Shown here piece after piece: positions 1,987 to 25,838 of a stretch of 31,769 nucleotides of DNA. Made by a program: the position numbers and the translations under genes. The stretch is from positions 1 through 31,769 of IMG/VR virus record IMGVR_UViG_3300034374_008893. The stretch is one strand, 5' to 3'. Position 1 is the first letter of the stretch, and each line of letters begins with the position of its first letter. A model generated the notes under the pieces. The model ran no database searches. It was not told the origin of the DNA and saw nothing but the letters and a program-made list of their open reading frames with translations. Source of the stretch: a virus.

Positions 1987-2754
1987 ATGACAGACTTTCA
2001 CGAGGTCCGGTTCCCGGACGACATAAGCAAGGGCTCGAGTGGCGGGCCGACACGTAGGACCGACATCGTCGAGCTCGTGTCAGGGCACGAGAAGAGGAAT
2101 GCGGCTCAAGCAAACTCGAAGCGTATGTACGATGCAGGCATCGGACTTAGAAATGTACAACATTTACATGCAATAATAGAATTTTGGGAGGCACGCTTCG
2201 GACAGCTATATGGCTTTAGATGGAAAGACTGGCTTGATTATAAAAGCAGCCGGGGAAAAGCTCAGCCTTCAGCCATAGATCAGGTACTAGGTACCGGAGA
2301 CGGCACTAACACAGTCTACAAAGTCTACAAGACTTACGGTGGCCCCGAAACAGCTTTTTACACTCGTAGGATTACAAAACTAGTGGAAGACAGCGTATTA
2401 GTTGCGCTAAACGGGACAGAGACCGACGAGTATTTGTACTCAGTAAATAAGGGCTTAATAATTTTCTTCAGTCCTCCGAGCGCAGGCGCTAAAATTACTG
2501 CGGGCTACGAGTTTGACGTTCCAGTTAGGTTTAATGCAGACAGTCTTATGATTAGTATTGATGCTTTTGAGGCGGGCTCAGTGCCAGCAGTAGAGATACG
2601 AGAACTAAAGCTTCAAGAGGCACCGGTTCCTATCGAGGCACAATATGCCGTAGATATTGCAGCAGTTTATGGCCTTAACGCCCTAATTGATTTGGCTAAC
2701 AAACTCGACAACACAGTTAACGTGGTCTATCCTGGAGTGCTATCATGCCCGTAA
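1987..2754 (+). CDS. DUF2460 distal tail protein, GTA g12-like
   Basis: A 255-residue protein matching the DUF2460/TIGR02217 family, the g12 homologue of Rhodobacter-type GTA tails, which forms part of the distal tail hub. Typical features are the N-terminal 'FHEVRFPDDISKGSSGGP', the 'RNVQHLHAIIEFWEARFGQLYGFRWKDW' region (residues about 56-83; key residues WEAR, GFRWKDW), and a C-terminal beta-rich half ending in 'VPVRFNADSL'. Length is near the family norm of about 210-250. The gene starts 1 base after the tape measure stop and overlaps the next gene by 10 bases. Codon use changes inside the gene: the first 150 bases or so are GC-rich like the neighbours, and from about 2140 on it becomes AT-rich. 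This suggests a recombination joint inside a conserved gene. Confidence 0.9.
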   Translation: MTDFHEVRFPDDISKGSSGGPTRRTDIVELVSGHEKRNAAQANSKRMYDAGIGLRNVQHLHAIIEFWEARFGQLYGFRWKDWLDYKSSRGKAQPSAIDQVLGTGDGTNTVYKVYKTYGGPETAFYTRRITKLVEDSVLVALNGTETDEYLYSVNKGLIIFFSPPSAGAKITAGYEFDVPVRFNADSLMISIDAFEAGSVPAVEIRELKLQEAPVPIEAQYAVDIAAVYGLNALIDLANKLDNTVNVVYPGVLSCP

Positions 2755-4690
2755 CATTAGAACAATTGACTACTCGGCTAGAAAACATTGACGTTGACGC
2801 CAACACACTGGGCAAGATTGTCAACGACGCCGCAGACACACCAAACGCCGGGCAGCCCAGCGGTACGGTTACAACACGCAGCGGGAATGTAGTCAAAAAT
2901 GCAGCGCGAGTATTGCAAGACCTTCGGCAGAATGCAACTTACAAAGTGCCAGTAGATTTCGGGGCAGGTTTACTCGTCGATGATCCGGCTTTCACCGTAC
3001 GCTATAATGGTAATATATATGCTCCTTCAAATGACTCTCCAAATTTTACGACAACTGCAACTTTTGTGCCCACTGAATGGGAGTTAGTTGCAAACCGTTC
3101 AGGAATGCCCTGGTTTGCGGAAATTTGTGCGGATGGGGTCTGGCGGGTCATTCTTGTAAAAATGGGGCAGTCGAATGCCGTCGGTAAGGGGGAGACGGGA
3201 GGTATAACTGCGTACAACTCCCTAGTCAAAGTGTATGATCAGCCTAACAATCAGATAGTCGAAGCAACTTATGGCTTTTTTAACACGCCAGACGCTGCGG
3301 ACATGGGCCTGACTACTGCGCATCGTATTGCTGAAAAATACGGCGTCGAAGTTATTGTGGTCGACAACGCGCAAGGGGGCTTATCGATTGACAACTGGCA
3401 CGAACCTCTGCAGGGAAACTCGGCTCCGACGCTAAACATGTGGACGCCGCTAACAACTGACGTACCGGCCGCACTTAGTCTCGCAGGGGCCACTAAGGCT
3501 CACATTCTATTTGCGCAAGGGGAGTCTGACTCGAATATGCCCCTTGACGAATATTACATAAAACTAGATGCCATCATCGACGATCTGATTGACAACCAGC
3601 CCTGGTTTGTCCGGGGTTTTTCGTTGTTCATGGACGTTGAAATGGGCACAGCAAACCTGGCGGGCAAGTCAGACAAGCAGATATGGTCGAAGCAGTTGCT
3701 TTCAGGCAAAAGACCTGATATTCATAAAATTTTGCGGACTAGACTTATGCCAATGAAGGACGCTCTGCATTTTTCTGGAGAGTCTACAGACGCTATTGGT
3801 GCAATGGCTGAACAAACCCTTACCGCTCCAGCCTTGAATACGTCAGTTGACGCATATATAGCTGATAATTCCATAATTGACTTACACCCAACAGGCACGA
3901 CCGGAGTGCTTTTTAACAACCTACAAGATATTTGGTACGCGGTTTCGGCTTCTCGCATTGAACCGTCTAAAATAGTCATAATAAATCTTAAGCCCGGAGA
4001 CCATATCTATAAAAGTTTGGTAGTTGACGCAGCTAATTCTAATCAGATTATTTTCAGAGGAGCTCCCGTATCTGGCACTGAGCCTACTGCTTCTAATCTT
4101 ACTGGAACGTATTCTACCGATCTTAGTGCTTGGGAAAGCTACTGGCCTTCGCGTTTGCGTCCTACAGGACAAGCTTTAGCTCTCGTGTCTCCGGTCTATG
4201 CTTTTGAAAACCTTTTAATAGCGGCAGACGTGAATGCCGACGGAGTTGTGTTAGGCTCTGAAACGGGGGACAGATATTCGGGTTCAAGCCAGTTTAAGAA
4301 AGTAGGTATCATAGGTTTCAATGAGGCTGGGGTTGAAGGTCGTTATGGTGGAAAACTTTTTGCCCCGGGGGCCTTAGGCAGCCCCGAGTTGTATATATCT
4401 CATTGTCAAGATGCATTAAAACTCAACGGCGCTCAGGTCTGGACGCAAGGAGCTTTAATTTCGCGAAATTTGCGATACGGAGTATATTGTGGCGGATTTT
4501 CCGACGCTTATGTTGACAATGCAGACATTGTAAACAATGCCTCTAATGATCTTTTTGTTGCCGGAGAGGCTCGGGCGACAATTCAGGCAAAGAACATGCT
4601 AACTGCTACTACGTCTAACCGGACTTATAATTCTACAGGAGGCTGGGGGCAAACAGTTTACGGCAATGATGGGGCTAGGTAGTGAAGAAA
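2140..4690. other. Low-GC mosaic segment in the tail-tip module
   Basis: From about 2140 to about 4690 base composition drops. Hand-counted 60-base lines give roughly 38-50 percent GC here, against 60-75 percent in lines at 1261, 7201 and 13081. The left edge falls inside the DUF2460 gene. The right edge falls at the first codons of the DUF2163 gene. The segment carries most of the DUF2460 gene and the whole tailspike gene. I read it as an exchanged host-recognition cassette brought in by homologous recombination through conserved tail genes. Edges are approximate because they were judged by eye. Confidence 0.75.
2745..4682 (+). CDS. Tailspike/tail fibre with SGNH (sialate O-acetylesterase-like) domain
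   Basis: A 645-residue protein with three visible parts. Residues 1-120 look like a tail-attachment region, including 'VRYNGNIYAPSNDSPNF', as in many phage fibre N-termini. Residues about 130-365 carry SGNH/carbohydrate-esterase motifs: GQSN at 141-144 (nucleophile Ser143), QGESD at 258-262, and Asp339/His342 in 'DALHF', a complete Ser-Asp-His set. Residues about 375-645 are repetitive short beta-strands typical of beta-helix tailspikes. I infer that it deacetylates or otherwise modifies surface polysaccharide during adsorption. It lies between the g12 and g13 homologues, where the GTA has no extra gene. It overlaps the upstream gene by 10 bases and the downstream one by 1. Its low GC suggests acquisition from elsewhere. 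The exact substrate cannot be told. Confidence 0.8.
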   Translation: MPVTLEQLTTRLENIDVDANTLGKIVNDAADTPNAGQPSGTVTTRSGNVVKNAARVLQDLRQNATYKVPVDFGAGLLVDDPAFTVRYNGNIYAPSNDSPNFTTTATFVPTEWELVANRSGMPWFAEICADGVWRVILVKMGQSNAVGKGETGGITAYNSLVKVYDQPNNQIVEATYGFFNTPDAADMGLTTAHRIAEKYGVEVIVVDNAQGGLSIDNWHEPLQGNSAPTLNMWTPLTTDVPAALSLAGATKAHILFAQGESDSNMPLDEYYIKLDAIIDDLIDNQPWFVRGFSLFMDVEMGTANLAGKSDKQIWSKQLLSGKRPDIHKILRTRLMPMKDALHFSGESTDAIGAMAEQTLTAPALNTSVDAYIADNSIIDLHPTGTTGVLFNNLQDIWYAVSASRIEPSKIVIINLKPGDHIYKSLVVDAANSNQIIFRGAPVSGTEPTASNLTGTYSTDLSAWESYWPSRLRPTGQALALVSPVYAFENLLIAADVNADGVVLGSETGDRYSGSSQFKKVGIIGFNEAGVEGRYGGKLFAPGALGSPELYISHCQDALKLNGAQVWTQGALISRNLRYGVYCGGFSDAYVDNADIVNNASNDLFVAGEARATIQAKNMLTATTSNRTYNSTGGWGQTVYGNDGAR

Positions 4691-18202: not shown

Positions 18203-18637
18203 TTAAAATCCGGCCATGGCCCTGATTATGCTCGCAGCGCCGTCCTTCTCTCCTATGACCGAGCGTTCCGCCAGCCATACCTCCTGCACGCTCTTACGCA
18301 GAGCGGTCAGGTCCTCCCCTTCTAGCAGGTAGTGCCTGCGTTTATTCCCCGTGCCGACCCGAATGAGTAGCCAAGCAAGCCCTCCGACCTTACGCCTACG
18401 ACGCAGCCAGTCCATCTGGCGATCGGTTATCTTGACCTGAACTCCCCCTCGGGGACCGGGTTCCGGGCACGACTTGAGTTCGGTCCAGAAGCAAGAGCCG
18501 CGATAGCAGCCCTCCACGTCCGGACAGCCGACCTCCACCTCGTTCTCGACCCTGTGCATGTGCAGGTCTCGGCGGACCGGCTTCGCGCCGTCACGCAACC
18601 AGGCCCACAGGGCCTTCTCCTTGTCCTTCGTCACCAT
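18203..18637 (-). CDS. PD-(D/E)XK nuclease (VRR-NUC-like)
   Basis: A 144-residue protein with the core of a PD-(D/E)XK nuclease: Glu residues in 'VENEVEV', then 'GCPD' with Asp40, then 'FWTELK' with Glu53 and Lys55, followed by 'DRQMDWLRRRRKVGGLAWLLIRV', the usual Gln/helix end of the fold (key residues Q, W, GG, L). Such small phage enzymes act on branched or damaged DNA in recombination and repair; the exact substrate is unknown. The ATG at 18637 overlaps the end of the DHFR gene by 7 bases; a GTG at 18634 would give a 4-base overlap instead. Four Cys are present at 38, 44, 49 and 57. Confidence 0.75.
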   Translation of the reverse strand: MVTKDKEKALWAWLRDGAKPVRRDLHMHRVENEVEVGCPDVEGCYRGSCFWTELKSCPEPGPRGGVQVKITDRQMDWLRRRRKVGGLAWLLIRVGTGNKRRHYLLEGEDLTALRKSVQEVWLAERSVIGEKDGAASIIRAMAGF

Positions 18638-19092
18638 AAAAAAGCCCCCTGTCTCCAGGTCTCGACGTCCACGGAACCGACCTCAAACGACGCGTCCTTG
18701 TACCAGCTCGAGGCCAACACGCTTGAAAGCTCGTCGCGCTGCCCGGAGCCGAGCTGCACGCTCCGAGACCGACACACGTGTACGGAACGAACTAGGTTCT
18801 GCTCGAGGGCGTACAAGGCGAGCGTCTGACCGCCTAGCAGCGTGCAGTCAGGGCCGTGTCTCTGGACAAACGCCTCGAGACAGAAGTTCGAACGCGTTAT
18901 GCGAACGAGGCGCCGGCCCTCGAGGTGAGCGGGCATTAGGTCTAAGGTGCGGGCACTCGCTCCGCACACGCCTGAACCCGCTACAGTCAACAGCCTGAAG
19001 GCGAGCTTGTCGTCGCCCTTGAGCCACTCCATACGGTCGTCGGGGCCGCGTGACACGTATCCGTCCGACGATACTCCCATCACAAGCCTCAT
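18631..19092 (-). CDS. Dihydrofolate reductase-like protein
   Basis: A 153-residue protein with a DHFR layout. 'MGVSSDGYVSRG' is the first strand and loop. 'EWLKGDDKLAFR' matches the Trp-x-x-x-Asp helix with the catalytic acid. 'GASARTLDLMP' stands in for the NADPH-binding G-R-x-T-W region, 'LLGGQTLALYAL' for the GGxxxY motif. DHFR restores tetrahydrofolate after thymidylate-synthase-type methylation, which fits the TS-family gene nearby. The start at 19092 is chosen from GGAAGGAGACC before the ATG and the ATGA overlap with the dCMP deaminase gene. RibD C-terminal domains share the fold, so a related reductase cannot be excluded. Confidence 0.75.
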   Translation of the reverse strand: MRLVMGVSSDGYVSRGPDDRMEWLKGDDKLAFRLLTVAGSGVCGASARTLDLMPAHLEGRRLVRITRSNFCLEAFVQRHGPDCTLLGGQTLALYALEQNLVRSVHVCRSRSVQLGSGQRDELSSVLASSWYKDASFEVGSVDVETWRQGAFLW

Positions 19093-19529
19093 GGCAGGTC
19101 TCCTTCCCAGTTCACGACCTCGACGCTGCACTCCCGGAGTGCATCGCGGCCCTCTAGGTGGTGCCGCTTCCAGCGGCCGTCGAACGGTGGCGGAGACACG
19201 ACGCGGACAATCCCCGCCTGTATCATCGCCGCCGAGCAGTGAGCGCAGGGGCAGGTGGTCGCGTACATCGTCCAGCCGACGACCGATCGCCCTGCGTTAA
19301 GTATGGCGTTCAGCTCAGCGTGTACGAGGTGATAGTCCTTGAACTCCAGCTGAGTGATGCGCTCGTCCGTGTCCTCCATGCCTCGCGGCAGGCCCGAGAA
19401 GCCGAGGGAGAACCCTCGGCGATCCGGGCTGACGACACACGCACCGACGCCGAGGTCGGAGCCCTTGACCCACGACCGGGCTTCGACGGCGAGACGCATA
19501 AATCTAATGTCCCATTTGTTATTTTTCAT
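19089..19529 (-). CDS. dCMP deaminase (deoxycytidylate deaminase)
   Basis: A 146-residue zinc deaminase converting dCMP to dUMP. The zinc and catalytic residues are plain: His70-Ala-Glu72 in 'VHAELNAIL' and Cys95/Cys98 in 'CPCAHC'. The segment 'GFSGLPRGMED' and the fold order fit dCMP deaminases of phages such as T4. The ATG has GGAGAACAAAC before it and overlaps the HNH gene end by 11 bases; the 3' end overlaps the DHFR gene by 4. In this block it would supply dUMP for thymidine and would also compete for dCMP with the TS-family enzyme. Confidence 0.9.
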   Translation of the reverse strand: MKNNKWDIRFMRLAVEARSWVKGSDLGVGACVVSPDRRGFSLGFSGLPRGMEDTDERITQLEFKDYHLVHAELNAILNAGRSVVGWTMYATTCPCAHCSAAMIQAGIVRVVSPPPFDGRWKRHHLEGRDALRECSVEVVNWEGDLP

Positions 19530-19890
19530 GTTTGTTCTCCATGTAAGAGACTATGCTTTTCAACTCCTCTAAAGAGGCGTCGCCCTTTATCTTGTTTGCC
19601 CGCCAGCTTATAATAGCAACATTGCCCTTCACATAACCCGTACGATTGTCAAGTCTGTCGAGGGAAGCCGAGTTAGGTTGTCGGCCCAAGCCTGTTCCGG
19701 GGTATGAAAGCTTGAGCCCTAATACTGGACAGTGTGTTGGAGCAACACCTAAGTCTTCTACTGTAAGCGCAAAATCGACAGAGTATATGCGAGCCCGGTC
19801 CCTCGCATTTTTCAATAGGCTAGATAAGGGGTTGTTTTGCCGCCATCTACGAGCGGCTGCTCTTTGTTTTTCCGGGCTCGCTGAACTCAT
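19519..19890 (-). CDS. HNH-type endonuclease (free-standing homing type), copy 1
   Basis: A 123-residue protein with the small phage HNH layout: basic N-terminus, 'CPVLGLKLSY', then 'SLDRLDNRTGYVKGNV' and 'ISWRANKIKGDASLEEL'. The middle His/Asp/Asn elements fit an HNH or endonuclease VII-like fold. These genes usually spread by cutting a homologous allele lacking them. It sits between the TS-family and dCMP deaminase genes. One sampled line gives 48 percent GC, well below the flanking genes, which suggests recent arrival. The start at 19890 follows a GGAGG-containing stretch. A related gene lies at 25464-25838. Confidence 0.78.
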   Translation of the reverse strand: MSSASPEKQRAAARRWRQNNPLSSLLKNARDRARIYSVDFALTVEDLGVAPTHCPVLGLKLSYPGTGLGRQPNSASLDRLDNRTGYVKGNVAIISWRANKIKGDASLEELKSIVSYMENKHEK

Positions 19891-19892
19891 GT

Positions 19893-20783
19893 CTATTCTA
19901 CGACCTCCGGCATGGGGTCCCACGAGTTCGAGGCCGCACGCTTCGCGAGGCGCTTGACCGTGTCGCAGTAGGCCTCGGGGTCTCCGAGGATCATCTCTAT
20001 GGACCAGCCAGGCAGGTTGGGCTGCACGCCCGTCGCCCAGTGGGAAGAGGCGCCCTTGAGCATCTCACGTTCGCGGGCGTCTTTGGGACGCGGGTCCATG
20101 TCGAGACACGCCTTCGTCGCGTTCCAGTGCGTCTCGTACAGGTGCGCATGCGCCAGCGAGAAGTGCAGGCTTCCGGGCTTGCAGTCCGTGCTGGCTGCGA
20201 TCGCGTCTAGCGTGAGAGCGTAGGCCATCACGTCGTAAGGCAGACCGACGAACAGGTCTGAGGACCGGACGTACACGCTCATGTGCAGGTCGTCGTCGAA
20301 CCGGTTTATGGCGAAGCCGAGAGGGCACGGAATGTTCTTCGGCTGTACGCCTCCGAGGCCGTCACAGCGGGGGTCCCAGGCAGACACGAACAGCTGTCGG
20401 TTGGTCGGGTTGGCCTTGAGCTGAGACACCGCTCGGCCTATCTGGTCACGTTCGAAGGCCTCACGCCATCGCCACCCGTAAGCCGTCTTGAGCTCGCCGT
20501 CCTCGACGAACTTGCTCCACAGCTTGGGAGCCTTCGACAGGATGAACTTCGGGTCTTTGGTCCCCATGAACTGCCAGGCGGTCTCCGCGGCGGCGATGTG
20601 CGGGTAGTATCGACGGTTGCCGGCCATGGGGATCGTACCCTCGCGCAGGTCGAGGGTGAAGGCATGGCCTCCGGGCACGACCTTGATGCGTGACTTCGTC
20701 CGTTCGTTCACCTCCTCGAACCCCTGGTTGAGGGTGTTGACGAGCAGGCCCCGATAGGCCTCGTGGAATGTCTGTCGGTTCAT
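19893..20783 (-). CDS. Thymidylate-synthase-family enzyme, predicted dCMP-acting (methylase or hydroxymethylase)
   Basis: A 296-residue ThyA-fold enzyme. Aligned by eye with E. coli TS at a constant offset of 7: catalytic Cys153 ('NIPCPLGF') for Cys146; Arg173-Ser174-x-Asp176 for Arg166/Ser167/Asp169; His214 and Tyr216 ('HAHLYETH') for His207/Tyr209. Two positions differ. Asp184 in 'GLPYDV' replaces Asn177, the residue that reads uracil, and Pro154 replaces His147. Asp at this position marks dCMP hydroxymethylases such as T4 gp42. The usual hydrophobic TS C-terminus is also missing (the end is 'PEVVE'). I infer action on dCMP; a diverged dUMP enzyme remains possible. It overlaps the kinase-fusion gene by 4 bases (ATGA). 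Confidence 0.82.
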   Translation of the reverse strand: MNRQTFHEAYRGLLVNTLNQGFEEVNERTKSRIKVVPGGHAFTLDLREGTIPMAGNRRYYPHIAAAETAWQFMGTKDPKFILSKAPKLWSKFVEDGELKTAYGWRWREAFERDQIGRAVSQLKANPTNRQLFVSAWDPRCDGLGGVQPKNIPCPLGFAINRFDDDLHMSVYVRSSDLFVGLPYDVMAYALTLDAIAASTDCKPGSLHFSLAHAHLYETHWNATKACLDMDPRPKDAREREMLKGASSHWATGVQPNLPGWSIEMILGDPEAYCDTVKRLAKRAASNSWDPMPEVVE

Positions 20784-21802
20784 GACAAGTCTCCCAGCAG
20801 GCGTTTGACCAAGGTGTCCACGTTGTCACGCAGCTGAGCCTCAGTGCCGTTGTTGTCGATGACGAAGTCAGCCATCCAGGGCTCGACGGTGCAGGAGCTT
20901 GCGTCCTCGGGAGGCAAGCGGTCCGAAGCATCGACCCAGATGCAGACGTCGAAGCCGCCCACGTTTTTCAGTCCGTTAAACTCGCGCTTGTTGCGGAGAC
21001 CGCAGTATACGTCGTGCTCCTCGAAAATCTCGCGGCCGAGGCGAGCTGGGTCTTCGGCGCAGTACTCCGAAATGGCTTCGAACCAAGCGGCTCTGTAATT
21101 AGCACGGTCGTCGAAGCACTCCTTTGCCGTTTTGTAGGGGCCGGGTCCATTGTACTCAGCGTCTTGCTCAGCGCAGATTGCCATGGCGCGATCGATAGTC
21201 GGCATGACTACGCGCTCTGCGCAGAACTCCGAGCTAGACGTGAACCGGAAGCCGTAGACGTCACGTAGACGCTCACACACAGTGTCCTTGCCGTGCCGAC
21301 CGTGGCCGAGCACCAAGACCTTCGGCAGGACCTGACGGACAGGTAGCTCCGGAGCCGTCGAGAGCTCACCCTCGTCGGTCAACAGGCCCATGAAGCGCAC
21401 GTCTTCCTGCGTGATGCGGAGGTAAGGCGCGAGGTCGGGGGGCGTCCATCTCTCGGGCTTGACGGCGTCGAAGCCCTTGCTGTTCGGCCGCTTGGACAGC
21501 TCACCTCGTACCTTGCGCATGTTCGCTCCGTGCACCTCCTCGAAGAGAGGCCGCGGACAGAGACCCATCTCCACCAGGCGTCCAAGCGCGAAGTAGGTCA
21601 AGTCGATGAGCGCGTCTGCCTCGCCGTCTATGTCTCCGGCGTCCTTGAACTCGGTCAGCTCCTCGTTCAAAGCGGACAACGCCCACTCCTTGCGTTCGGG
21701 GCTCAGTCGCTCCGGCTCCTTCGGGATGGGTAGGCCGAGAATGTCGCGAGCGAAGCGCTCGGTCATCTCAGCGAAGTCCGCAATCATGTCTGTTCTCTTC
21801 AT
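20780..21802 (-). CDS. MazG-like NTP pyrophosphohydrolase fused to deoxynucleoside monophosphate kinase
   Basis: A 340-residue two-domain protein. Residues about 1-125 fit an all-alpha MazG-like NTP pyrophosphohydrolase: metal-binding EELTE (Glu47, Glu48, Glu51) and 'EADALIDLTYFALG' (Glu61, Asp63, Asp67). Residues about 158-340 fit a phage dNMP kinase: Walker A 'GHGRHGKDT' at 166-174, as in the GKDT motif of T4 gp1, and 'GREIFEEHDVYCGLRNKREF' further on. The first domain could hydrolyse a dNTP to dNMP, the second phosphorylate a dNMP. ATGA overlaps on both sides couple it to the glycosylase and TS-family genes. The ATG at 21802 follows AAAGGAAAGTAGC. Substrates are inferred from context only. 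Confidence 0.8.
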   Translation of the reverse strand: MKRTDMIADFAEMTERFARDILGLPIPKEPERLSPERKEWALSALNEELTEFKDAGDIDGEADALIDLTYFALGRLVEMGLCPRPLFEEVHGANMRKVRGELSKRPNSKGFDAVKPERWTPPDLAPYLRITQEDVRFMGLLTDEGELSTAPELPVRQVLPKVLVLGHGRHGKDTVCERLRDVYGFRFTSSSEFCAERVVMPTIDRAMAICAEQDAEYNGPGPYKTAKECFDDRANYRAAWFEAISEYCAEDPARLGREIFEEHDVYCGLRNKREFNGLKNVGGFDVCIWVDASDRLPPEDASSCTVEPWMADFVIDNNGTEAQLRDNVDTLVKRLLGDLS

Positions 21803-22224
21803 GCTACTTTCCTTTCTCGCACGTACCAGTTCAGTTTGCCATCGTTCGGCTCGACGTCGTCGCGCTTCTCGATGAACAGGGCCCAACTGTCTGCAGCATA
21901 CTTGCCACAGCCGGGCAGTCTCATGACGTCGTCCGACGTCCTTACCTCCGAGCTGAAGACCTGAGCCATGCCGGTCAGGGTCTTCGCCCTTCGATTGTAT
22001 AGCCCCAAGGGGGCCAGCGTCTGAGCCATCGCTTCAAGGGGCGCTCTCGCGAGCGCGTCCTGCGTCGGATAGGACCGACGGAGCTCGTGGAACACGGGCT
22101 CAGCGGCGGTCCACGTCGTTAGGTTGACTAACTGGCATGCGACAAGCATCCAGAACGGGTCGGAGCAGAGGTCCTCCTGGAAGAGCGTCCCCTTGCGCGG
22201 CACAGCTATCTTCGTCGTTCCCAT
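21799..22224 (-). CDS. HhH-GPD DNA glycosylase, MBD4-like
   Basis: A 141-residue protein resembling the catalytic domain of vertebrate MBD4. Shared text includes 'DPFWMLVACQLVNLTT' (MBD4 has DPW-LLIA-LNRT), 'LAPLGLYNRRAKTL' (PLGLY-RAKT), 'LPGCGKYAADSWALF' (the helix-hairpin-helix, G-GKY-DS) and 'VEPNDGKLNWY' with Asp128 as the likely catalytic residue (MBD4 'PEDHKLNKY'). MBD4 removes T or U from G:T and G:U mismatches, especially after 5-methylcytosine deamination. ATG at 22224 is used; a GTG at 22233 would add three residues, and neither has a strong Shine-Dalgarno. It overlaps the upstream gene by 125 bases and the kinase-fusion gene by 4. Confidence 0.8.
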   Translation of the reverse strand: MGTTKIAVPRKGTLFQEDLCSDPFWMLVACQLVNLTTWTAAEPVFHELRRSYPTQDALARAPLEAMAQTLAPLGLYNRRAKTLTGMAQVFSSEVRTSDDVMRLPGCGKYAADSWALFIEKRDDVEPNDGKLNWYVRERKVA

Positions 22225-22567
22225 AGTTCTCACACACCATCATGATCTCGAGGTAGGTCACTATCATCGATACGACCCCCACGACTGAGCCGCAACGCAC
22301 GGCCCGCGTCTTGACGACCGGGTAGAAGGCCTTCTTCGTCTTCTCGTCTCGTAGGACGAACAGGCTTCCTCCCTGTCTCGTGTCCCTGAGGTGCTTACCC
22401 TCCTTGTTCCAAAGTCTCCGTTCGTGTTCGATGTACGTCGCCTTCGCGTCGTCAAAGGCGAGCCCGTACCTCTCCATGAGCCTGAACATGGAGTGCCTAC
22501 GTGCCCTGAACCTGTGCTCCTTCAACTCTCGCTTGACGATCGCGTCCTCAAGCGGCGAAGGGATCAT
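22100..22567 (-). CDS. Hypothetical protein overlapping the glycosylase gene
   Basis: A 155-residue protein I do not recognise. The first 110 residues look like a real fold: a basic helix ('RELKEHRFRARRHSMFRLMERYG') and then strands ending at 'VVGVVSMIVTYLEIMMVCEN'; key features are the Arg-rich helix and the hydrophobic strand. The last 40 residues lie within the glycosylase coding region and look like low-constraint sequence, so the functional part may end near residue 115. The start at 22567 is inside the end of the upstream gene by 20 bases. Confidence 0.55.
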   Translation of the reverse strand: MIPSPLEDAIVKRELKEHRFRARRHSMFRLMERYGLAFDDAKATYIEHERRLWNKEGKHLRDTRQGGSLFVLRDEKTKKAFYPVVKTRAVRCGSVVGVVSMIVTYLEIMMVCENYGNDEDSCAAQGDALPGGPLLRPVLDACRMPVSQPNDVDRR

Positions 22568-24009: not shown

Positions 24010-25471
24010 TTTCCATGCTCCTCAAGAAATTCTTCAGGCCCCTGCCGCTCAGGTAGTCCGCGGTCTGAGCCTTCTCCTCTTGTTTCTCCAGTATACGCTC
24101 GTCGGGTGTACCGAGAGCCACCAGGTCGGCCACTCCGATCCTGCGTCCCCCGAGCTGCGTGGCCCTCTCGTCGGCCTGCTTCCGCTCGATCGCACTGAAC
24201 GTGTGGCTGAACCAGACAATGTCATCTCCAGCCGACAGGTCTAACCCCTGTCCACCTGCTCGCGGCTGACCCACGAACTCGGTCACGGACGGGTCGTTCT
24301 GGAACGCGTCAATCGCGTCTGAACGCTCGTCTGCCTTCGTGCCTCCGTGATACTCCACGAAGTTACGCCCCATGCGACGTAGCAGCTCGGTGACCAGGCG
24401 TATTTCCTCTCGGAAGCGACACCAGATTATCGTCTTGCCTCGAGCGAGTATGAGCTCAGCCCTCAGGGCCTCTAGCCTCGGGTTCAGCTCCGGTTTGACG
24501 AGCTGGTGGATGTCTCCGTCCTCGTCGACCACGTAGCCCGACGATACCTGCTGCAGCCTGATGACCAGGGCGCCTCCGTCTGACGGGCTGACGTGCTCGC
24601 CGCTCTCGAGGCGTTGCATCATGCCATCGACCAGGTTGTCGAAGACCTTGCGTTGCTCGGGCAGCATCTCGAACGGTCGAGCGGCCCTGATGAGCTCGGG
24701 CATGTCGTCGCAGTCCTCTCTGAGCACGACGGACGACCACTGAGCCATGCGCTCACGGAGCTCCTCCTGGTTGACGTACTCGGAGATGACCTTGTAGGTG
24801 CGCTTCGTCTTCCAGTTGCGCTTCTCTTCCTCGACGGCGTAGCGGTCCTTGAAGTCCTGATAGCGAGTGAACCCTAAGGCCCCCTTGCTGAGTATCTCAT
24901 ACTGTGAGAAGGCTTTGAGCGGGCTCTCGTCGACTGCCGTCCCGCTGAGTATCCGGCGCATCGCCGTCTTGCTCTCGAGCGCACGGACGGCTCGAGTGCG
25001 CTTAGCCCCCGGAGTACCGAACTCGTGGCTCTCGTCAACGACGAGCAGCACCCTCTTGCGGGATTTCAGGAACTCGGCCACGGCCTGCTTACCGACCTTC
25101 GTCTGAAAGGCGTCACAGTTGACGGCGAACCAGGCCAGCTTGTTGGAGGCCTTGAAGTGTGCGAAGGCCTCGCGCCAGGACACGTTCCGTGCCTTGACGG
25201 CGTTCCACACCATCTTGCAGTGTGGCACTTCCCTCCAGTGATGCTTCGGGAGCTCGCGTATTATCCAATTGACGTGAACGCCGTTGGGAGCAATAACGAG
25301 CACGCCGTCTAGCTCCCGGTACCGCGCGTTGTAGCAGGCCGTGTCGATGACGGCCTTCGTCTTCCCCGAGCGCATTTGCCAGAGTAACGCCCGGGCCTCA
25401 TCGTCTCGGTGCAGTTCGAACTCACGTAGCTGGTGTCTGTAGGGCGGAAATACAAAGGGATAGTCAGCCAT
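24002..25471 (-). CDS. SNF2-family DEAD/H helicase
   Basis: A 489-residue superfamily 2 helicase with SNF2 features. 'YRHQLREFEL' is the Q-like motif, 'LLWQMRSGKTKAVID' is Walker A (GKT), 'LLVVDESHEF' is the DESH box, 'ILSGTAVDESP' is motif III. In the second RecA domain 'KTIIWCRFREEI', 'EYHGGT' and 'QPRAGGQGLDLSAGDDIVWF' with 'QADERATQLGG' form motifs IV-VI. Phages use such ATPases as remodelers or helicases in replication and recombination. It overlaps the HNH gene end by 8 bases, and GCGGAG precedes the ATG. Length is near the phage norm of 450-550. Confidence 0.9.
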   Translation of the reverse strand: MADYPFVFPPYRHQLREFELHRDDEARALLWQMRSGKTKAVIDTACYNARYRELDGVLVIAPNGVHVNWIIRELPKHHWREVPHCKMVWNAVKARNVSWREAFAHFKASNKLAWFAVNCDAFQTKVGKQAVAEFLKSRKRVLLVVDESHEFGTPGAKRTRAVRALESKTAMRRILSGTAVDESPLKAFSQYEILSKGALGFTRYQDFKDRYAVEEEKRNWKTKRTYKVISEYVNQEELRERMAQWSSVVLREDCDDMPELIRAARPFEMLPEQRKVFDNLVDGMMQRLESGEHVSPSDGGALVIRLQQVSSGYVVDEDGDIHQLVKPELNPRLEALRAELILARGKTIIWCRFREEIRLVTELLRRMGRNFVEYHGGTKADERSDAIDAFQNDPSVTEFVGQPRAGGQGLDLSAGDDIVWFSHTFSAIERKQADERATQLGGRRIGVADLVALGTPDERILEKQEEKAQTADYLSGRGLKNFLRSMENV

Positions 25472-25838
25472 TGCGAAACTCCGCTACGACTTCGTCATCC
25501 CAGTCTAGCTTAACGAGATTGTAGATATAGCTTACAACGCGTACGTTGTCGCGGGTGTAGCCTTCTCCCGGTTTTATCTGGTCAAGAGAAGGCTTCCAGG
25601 GATTGCGTTTGCCCGGACCGCTCCATTCCCAAGAGAGCGGATGACCGGTGACTGCGCACCTCATGGGCGCGTACAGCTCTTCGAAGTCTTCAAGCGTCAA
25701 CTCAAACTTTCGACCCTTTTTCAATGCCCTTGAGCGAATGTAGGAGAACTCGCAACGTATCGGGTTGCGAGCTTTCCACGCGTTGTTTGAGAGCTGACGT
25801 GCAGTCGCTTTAATGGGCAGTGACGTACCTGTACTCAC
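25464..25838 (-). CDS. HNH-type endonuclease (free-standing homing type), copy 2
   Basis: A 124-residue protein with the same plan as the HNH gene at 19519: an Arg/Lys helix ('SYIRSRALKKGRKFELTLED'), 'CAVTGHPLSWEWSGPG', then 'PSLDQIKPGEGYTRDNVRVV' and a C-terminal helix. One sampled line gives 47 percent GC, lower than the helicase and HD genes around it. It starts at a GTG with CAGGAG before it and overlaps the HD gene end by 29 bases and the helicase start by 8. Probably a mobile gene inserted between two core genes. Confidence 0.72.
   Translation of the reverse strand: MSTGTSLPIKATARQLSNNAWKARNPIRCEFSYIRSRALKKGRKFELTLEDFEELYAPMRCAVTGHPLSWEWSGPGKRNPWKPSLDQIKPGEGYTRDNVRVVSYIYNLVKLDWDDEVVAEFRNG

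Follow-up and report, generated by a model that had tools for sequence, protein, structure and literature searches.

The question raised by this locus is why a phage should carry a DNA glycosylase resembling MBD4, and on which lesion in which DNA such an enzyme would act. The window, by which we mean the whole stretch of viral DNA analysed (31,769 nucleotides), holds the gene at one end of a compact nucleotide-metabolism cassette. A preliminary description had regarded the product as a G:T mismatch glycosylase that matches the catalytic domain of MBD4 along nearly its full length, and had argued that such an enzyme makes sense mainly if the phage genome holds modified cytosine. The genes concerned are as follows.

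21799..22224, minus strand: MBD4-type HhH-GPD glycosylase without a methyl-CpG-binding domain (MBD), 141 residues
20780..21802, minus strand: MazG-like nucleotide pyrophosphohydrolase with a C-terminal kinase-like part (PF01503, phrog_38514, phrog_139)
19893..20783, minus strand: Asp-type thymidylate synthase homologue (GLPYD184; PF00303)
19519..19923, minus strand: small HNH-like ORF (by eye) between synthase and deaminase, with a similar ORF in L022 and others
19089..19529, minus strand: dCMP deaminase homologue (PF00383, phrog_174)
18631..19131, minus strand: dihydrofolate reductase (DHFR) homologue (phrog_13578, E 7e-35)
18203..18637, minus strand: small nuclease/resolvase-like gene at the cassette end (phrog_2165, phrog_843)

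The glycosylase ORF starts with ATG at 22224 and stops with TGA at 21799-21801; the protein would have 144 residues if the upstream GTG at 22233 serves as the start. The three motifs quoted in the preliminary description (PLGLYNRRAKT, GCGKYAADS and PNDGKLNWY) are all present in it. In a phmmer comparison with the PDB, the first 15 distinct sequences were MBD4, the best with an E-value of 1.5e-14 over residues 13-134 of 141, and the near full-length match was thus reproduced. Endonuclease III (1.9e-5), 1kea (Mig.Mth; 6e-4) and MutY (1e-3) followed among the lower matches. The profile search that had been proposed as a check gave the same ranking: with a profile of 11 relatives, MBD4 (1e-29) was ahead of 1kea (7e-15), endonuclease III (9e-15) and MutY (3e-10). 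The PHROG search of this ORF gave no match. In Pfam, HhH-GPD (32.9 bits against a cut-off of 26.2) was the only domain in the whole 141-residue ORF, and the claimed lack of a fused methyl-CpG-binding domain was therefore borne out. Without this N-terminal domain, the protein is a relative of the MBD4 catalytic domain only and not an MBD4 orthologue.

The predicted model of the glycosylase (mean pLDDT 88.6, pTM 0.83) gave a similar result. VIA placed MBD4 at a Z of 20.6 (1.9 A over 130 residues), and the next families by fold were endonuclease III (14.0) and Mig.Mth (13.9). The first 16 Foldseek matches were all MBD4 (best E 2.5e-7, TM 0.83-0.85). By sequence and predicted fold, the MBD4 catalytic domain is the nearest solved relative of this protein. 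The four-cysteine Fe-S motif C-terminal of the catalytic Asp is absent, as the protein ends 13 residues past D128 with no Cys there; when the aligned part alone was counted, 61 of 61 phage members had at most one Cys from the catalytic-Asp column onward. None of the sequence, profile and fold comparisons placed an Fe-S enzyme of the MutY or endonuclease III kind at the top, an outcome that would have spoken against the claim. An endonuclease III or MutY identity is ruled out by profile, by fold and by the missing Fe-S motif.

The cassette is tightly packed and conserved. The glycosylase stop and the ATG of the MazG/kinase-like gene share four nucleotides (ATGA). The gene order glycosylase-MazG-synthase-deaminase-nuclease is identical in 13 of 13 close relatives (L001-L009, L015-L018), and the nuclease/resolvase-like gene is conserved in all of them. 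DHFR was matched in 10 of the 13; L002, L007 and L008, whose cassettes are otherwise window-like and include the glycosylase, gave no DHFR match, and their synthase might be a hydroxymethylase. All 19 aligned homologues of the synthase keep Asp184. Since Asp at this position marks a cytosine-type enzyme of modified genomes (PMC5175136, PMC8670742), the synthase is read from its sequence as a putative dCMP methylase (or hydroxymethylase). The deaminase homologue is possibly a 5-methyl-dCMP deaminase yielding dTMP. The ORF at 19519..19923, for which the Pfam search gave no match, is probably a homing-type insert outside the pathway.

Several further ORFs were noted. HNH-like small ORFs (19519-19923 and 25464-25838, both minus strand) are inserted between cassette genes of the window, and similar inserts occur at different gene borders in L001, L002 and L022. 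Between its DHFR and deaminase genes, PaMx74 has a 134-aa ORF without annotation (L255 34630-35034), which is absent in its close relatives G045 and G046. In the tail region of the window, the protein encoded at 2745-4682 contains a SASA domain of the carbohydrate-esterase type (6.6e-10), which may act on sugars of the host surface.

We consider it quite likely that the gene serves base-excision repair of T:G pairs arising from 5-methylcytosine deamination in the phage's own DNA, with an MBD4-type glycosylase as the first enzyme. The Asp-type synthase would make 5-methyl-dCMP, and DHFR would recycle the dihydrofolate produced by a reductive dCMP methylase. As in Xp12, 5-methylcytosine would presumably replace the genomic cytosine of the window phage. 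Its deamination gives thymine, and the resulting T:G pairs would be invisible to uracil-DNA glycosylase. The residues that would deal with such a pair were assigned by sequence alignment together with the fold alignment ranges: Q16, L35, L75, Y109, D128 and K130 correspond to Q449, R468, L508, Y540, D560 and K562 of human MBD4, respectively. MBD4 uses V448, Q449 and Y540 to recognise the edge of the thymine and D560 to prime the water; K562 anchors the phosphate, and R468 serves as the finger (PMC12073362). The putative monofunctional phage enzyme would start the repair by flipping the thymine out and reading it via Q16, F15 and Y109. D128 would be the general base in cleavage of the glycosidic bond, and the later steps would fall to the AP endonuclease, polymerase and ligase of the host. 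Since every cytosine would be methylated, the glycosylase should act in any CpN context, beyond CpG.

The proposal could be examined in vivo because the gene is naturally gained and lost. The genus of AXL1 and DoCa6 also includes DLP4 and DoCa10, whose cassette is the same except for a gap of 75 bp in place of the glycosylase gene. AXL1 and DLP4 have a common isolation host strain, and so do DoCa6 and DoCa10. GLPYD was found in 14 genomes (AXL1, DLP4, DoCa6, DoCa10, YB23, PaMx74, AAT-1, PA_LZ02, PaMx28, phiH1, G045, G046, G060 and G057), of which only AXL1, DoCa6, YB23, G060 and G057 carry the glycosylase; in the Asp-type-synthase record set it is also present in G050, G051 and G063. DLP4 and DoCa10 share 109 C>T changes, 13 T>C changes and 163 transversions, and these common changes indicate that the gene was probably lost once. 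In phiH1, a small ORF annotated as a HicA toxin (L278 39210-39437) lies between a 1-kb gene and the MazG gene, beside the glycosylase site.

To compare mutation spectra, close genomes were aligned and private changes, at which all the other genomes agree, were sorted into three classes: C>T together with G>A, T>C together with A>G, and transversions. The counts are given below in this order, followed by the ratio of C>T to T>C per available site.

DLP4, without glycosylase: 313/19/126, ratio 8.2
DoCa10, without glycosylase: 185/12/82, ratio 7.7
AAT-1, without glycosylase: 113/5/18, ratio 11.2 (five-genome set)
PA_LZ02, without glycosylase: 92/8/30, ratio 5.7 (five-genome set)
phiH1, without glycosylase: 105/4/26, ratio 13.1 (five-genome set)
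PaMx74, without glycosylase: 54/10/95, ratio 2.8
G045, without glycosylase: 375/43/374, ratio 4.4
G046, without glycosylase: 152/18/106, ratio 4.4
AXL1, with glycosylase: 72/32/190, ratio 1.1
DoCa6, with glycosylase: 56/14/22, ratio 2.0
G060, with glycosylase: 101/40/210, ratio 1.2
G057, with glycosylase: 201/46/272, ratio 2.1
Yuavirus controls, ratio only: YuA 1.0, M6 1.05, MP1412 0.79, LKO4 1.2

The ratio was 2.8-13 in the eight genomes without the gene, 1.1-2.1 in the four with it and 0.8-1.2 in the four Yuavirus controls, which are dUMP-type by record annotation; M6 among them carries modified thymine (PMC6449724). That phages with the cassette but no glycosylase have a large C>T excess is a new result of this study. 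When dense import tracts were masked, the ranges became 4.8-18.3, 1.6-4.1 and 1.4-2.1, respectively, in unchanged order. A Mann-Whitney test of the eight against the four genomes gave p = 0.004, and the comparison of those with the gene and the controls gave p = 0.11. The genomes are not independent: each state of the gene is represented by about two lineages, so that the p-values overstate the difference. At fourfold-degenerate positions, C>T changes per GC site were 97/2058 in DLP4 and 75/2032 in DoCa10, against 24/2035, 20/1943 and 44/2397 in AXL1, DoCa6 and YB23, which have the gene. In DLP4, no CpN context was spared: the C>T changes per 1000 were 17 (A), 12 (C), 30 (G) and 28 (T). They were equally frequent on the two strands (155 vs 158) and occurred in each of the eight 4-kb bins into which the aligned stretch was divided.

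The size of the ratio depended on the genomes compared. AAT-1, PA_LZ02 and phiH1 gave 4.3, 3.7 and 3.7 in a four-genome set, and a further set with G060 and G057 gave 9.5 for AAT-1, 4.5 for PA_LZ02 and 0.56 for PaMx74. PaMx74 reached 2.8 only once outgroups were added; its three-genome test, which was misled by homoplasy, gave 0.43. Used as outgroups, AAT-1 (in the G045/G046/PaMx74 set) gave 1.9 and the distant G060 gave 0.53. When C>T was set against transversions, DoCa6, which has the gene, overlapped with the phages without it (53:14 after masking). Imports and saturation dominate the deep branches, which were therefore left out of the comparison. Their all-site ratios were 0.40 (YB23), 1.9 (G051), 1.35 (G063) and 0.56 (G050) with the gene; PaMx28, without it, gave 1.6 in two sets, 1.7 in another and 0.56 in the four-genome set. 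The masked ratios of G051 (12.9) and G063 (4.9) came from just 31 and 20 changes, respectively.

The spectra point to T:G repair in vivo, and they suggest that the cassette phages without the glycosylase do contain 5-methylcytosine. A repair deficit would be the cause of the difference. Lifestyle may also contribute, as DLP4 forms lysogens (PMC9206674). The family, the fold, the residues, the cassette, the accessory gain and loss of the gene and the C>T excess in its absence are directly supported by the present data.

Co-occurrence with the Asp-type synthase, which the preliminary description had proposed to look for, was observed. A search of 28 glycosylase-bearing viral records for thymidylate synthase gave 14 matches. 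Thirteen of these were above the Pfam cut-off, 11 being Asp-type (seven Xp12-like, three T4 dCMP-hydroxymethylase-like and one other) and two Asn-type. The remaining 14 records, many of which are fragments, gave no synthase match, and in L044 the synthase is cut off before the diagnostic residue. In the reverse direction, the glycosylase was present in 15 of 47 viral records found via the Asp-type synthase and in 3 of 35 found via the Asn-type (Fisher p = 0.015, uncorrected for kinship). The 35 Asn-type records, of at least 37 kb, were drawn from 80 loci; the motif search read Asn in 74 of these, gave matches in other frames in five and none in one. Since 32 of the 47 Asp-type-synthase records have no glycosylase, the gene is not essential.

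Three T4-like records, L052, L056 and L047, bear on which modified base is concerned. In L052 (8403-10626), two ORFs of 93 and 350 aa separate the glycosylase from a homologue of T4 dCMP hydroxymethylase; the other two are arranged alike, and the Asp lies in GLQYD in all three. The Pfam-recognised synthase lies about 1.4 kb from the glycosylase; that of L052 matches T4 dCMP hydroxymethylase (E 2.6e-20) better than any true thymidylate synthase (3.6e-13 at best). These records connect the glycosylase with cytosine modification a second time, and apparently independently. They also favour the reading that the cassette synthase is a hydroxymethylase and that the main lesion is 5-hydroxymethyluracil:G, derived from 5-hydroxymethylcytosine, or that both this pair and T:G are repaired. 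MBD4 structures bound to hmU:G exist (4ea5, 4ew0, 4e9h), and the three window-like cassettes without a DHFR match would fit as well. However, Xp12, the characterised relative of the window's group, has 5-methylcytosine, most of the close relatives do have a DHFR match, and the A1 synthase profile matches ordinary thymidylate synthases best. We therefore regard this reading as unlikely for the window.

Some members of the family lie further from cytosine modification. Four large phages (L043, L045, L243 and L244, in records of 219-290 kb) have an MBD4-like glycosylase, and the only synthase found in them was Asn-type. A large clade of short MBD4-like proteins (L058-L085) comes from environmental viral contigs, and the records searched gave no thymidylate synthase; L071, an environmental viral contig, matches MBD4 in the PDB at 6e-20. 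DNA C5-methyltransferase (PF00145) was found in 0 of 41 records searched, and the distant members thus get no support from this side. The claim that the enzyme makes sense mainly with modified cytosine therefore stood for the window's group but does not yet fit the whole family, in which members sit with an Asn-type synthase alone or with no sign of modified cytosine.

Such members would be expected if the protein were a general pyrimidine or uracil glycosylase acting on U:G and oxidised bases, whatever the state of cytosine, and MBD4 indeed removes U from U:G as well (PMC5053750). In the window's group, however, the gene overlaps or directly precedes a cytosine-type cassette, and phages that have this cassette but lack the gene show an excess of C>T. 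The hosts, moreover, possess a uracil glycosylase of their own. A general role is very unlikely on these grounds.

The strongest objection to an MBD4-like activity is Leu35, because R468L and R468Q nearly abolish the activity of human MBD4 (PMC12073362). The arginine finger is not kept in the phage family: at this position, 38 of the 61 members have Leu, 20 have Gln and one each has Arg, Cys or Lys. The protein might then be a catalytically dead DNA-binding relative, and the spectra would differ by lifestyle, polymerase or host. Against this, the equivalents of MBD4 D560 (D128) and Y540 (Y109; Lys in bifunctional enzymes) are kept in 61 of 61 distinct phage members and that of Q449 (Q16) in 60 of the 60 with a letter there, which would be unexpected if catalysis were lost. 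The equivalent of K562 is K130 in the window but K in just 27 of 61. Given the invariant residues and the wide variation of the intercalating residue in the family, we think it highly improbable that the enzyme is dead. DNA glycosylases are known in anti-phage defence (PMC11078745, PMC13160076), but it is hardly credible that this one is a weapon or exclusion factor against host DNA or rival phages, like the bacterial defence glycosylases against T-even DNA, because the thymine-reading MBD4 residues are kept, the gene sits in a nucleotide-metabolism cassette and the spectrum difference is in the phage's own genome.

If repair of T:G from 5-methylcytosine is indeed the function, the locus would represent a repair system for a hypermodified genome with a minimal MBD4 core that has to act whatever the sequence context. 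Near-identical phages that differ in having the gene would then be a natural experiment revealing the mutational cost of 5-methylcytosine. Work on 5-methylcytosine has long used Xp12 DNA, in which all cytosine is methylated, as a model; in the open-licence literature, we found no paper on how such a phage withstands deamination at every cytosine, and no description of a phage MBD4-like or T:G glycosylase. A wider hypothesis is that cytosine-replacing phages evolved repair for their own bases, one glycosylase family serving 5-methylcytosine phages (T:G) as well as T4-like 5-hydroxymethylcytosine phages (hmU:G), with gain and loss setting the spectrum, and that the eukaryotic MBD4 catalytic domain descended from it. 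A quick tree placed human MBD4 beside L041 and L042 inside the phage family (SH-aLRT 91, 89) and apart from E. coli Nth and MutY. This placement is only a hint in view of the long branches and the short alignment, and the hypothesis as a whole is speculative and rather doubtful. A scan of bacterial and archaeal genomes gave 50 pattern matches and no relatives; the patterns were strict, and cellular relatives may exist.

Among 50,697 phage records, seven contain full-length relatives at 51-53% identity and six more give weak partial matches. The seven represent four phages, Donnerlittchen, YB23, DoCa6 and AXL_1, three of which are placed in Mesyanzhinovviridae/Bradleyvirinae by record taxonomy, YB23 being unplaced. 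The Donnerlittchen orthologue (L017 7929-8399) carries the deposited annotation endonuclease III. AXL1 gp65 is an orthologue of the window protein, with 52% identity and the same site, flanked by a small ORF and the MazG gene, but has a longer N-terminus. In print it is an ENDO3c-domain protein, reported elsewhere in Xp12 only and said to lack canonical active-site motifs (PMC9206674); that paper, from which the statement on Xp12 is taken, did not recognise its MBD4-like nature. The same source describes AXL1 as resistant to restriction enzymes and the cytosine of Xp12 as wholly replaced by 5-methylcytosine (PMC9206674), and Xp12 is listed in Bosavirus (PMC11946847).

The MBD4 catalytic domain and the window protein share the HhH-GPD fold, the catalytic Asp, the Tyr replacing the Lys of endonuclease III, the Gln and Lys of the thymine pocket and the lack of an Fe-S cluster. 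The window protein differs in having no methyl-CpG-binding domain, Leu in place of the R468 finger and about 32% identity, and in being a phage gene inside a nucleotide cassette. Mig.Mth, the archaeal T:G glycosylase, is second in the profile search but far lower by fold, and it is a larger, Fe-S-containing enzyme; its gene adjoins a 5-methylcytosine methyltransferase gene. Endonuclease III (Nth) and MutY share the HhH-GPD superfamily but are far weaker matches, with an Fe-S cluster and different residues at the Tyr position. The Xp12-type cassette resembles that of the window in its Asp-type synthase, dCMP deaminase, DHFR and MazG genes, and 5-methylcytosine, which is known for the Xp12 genome, would by inference be the base of the window phage as well.
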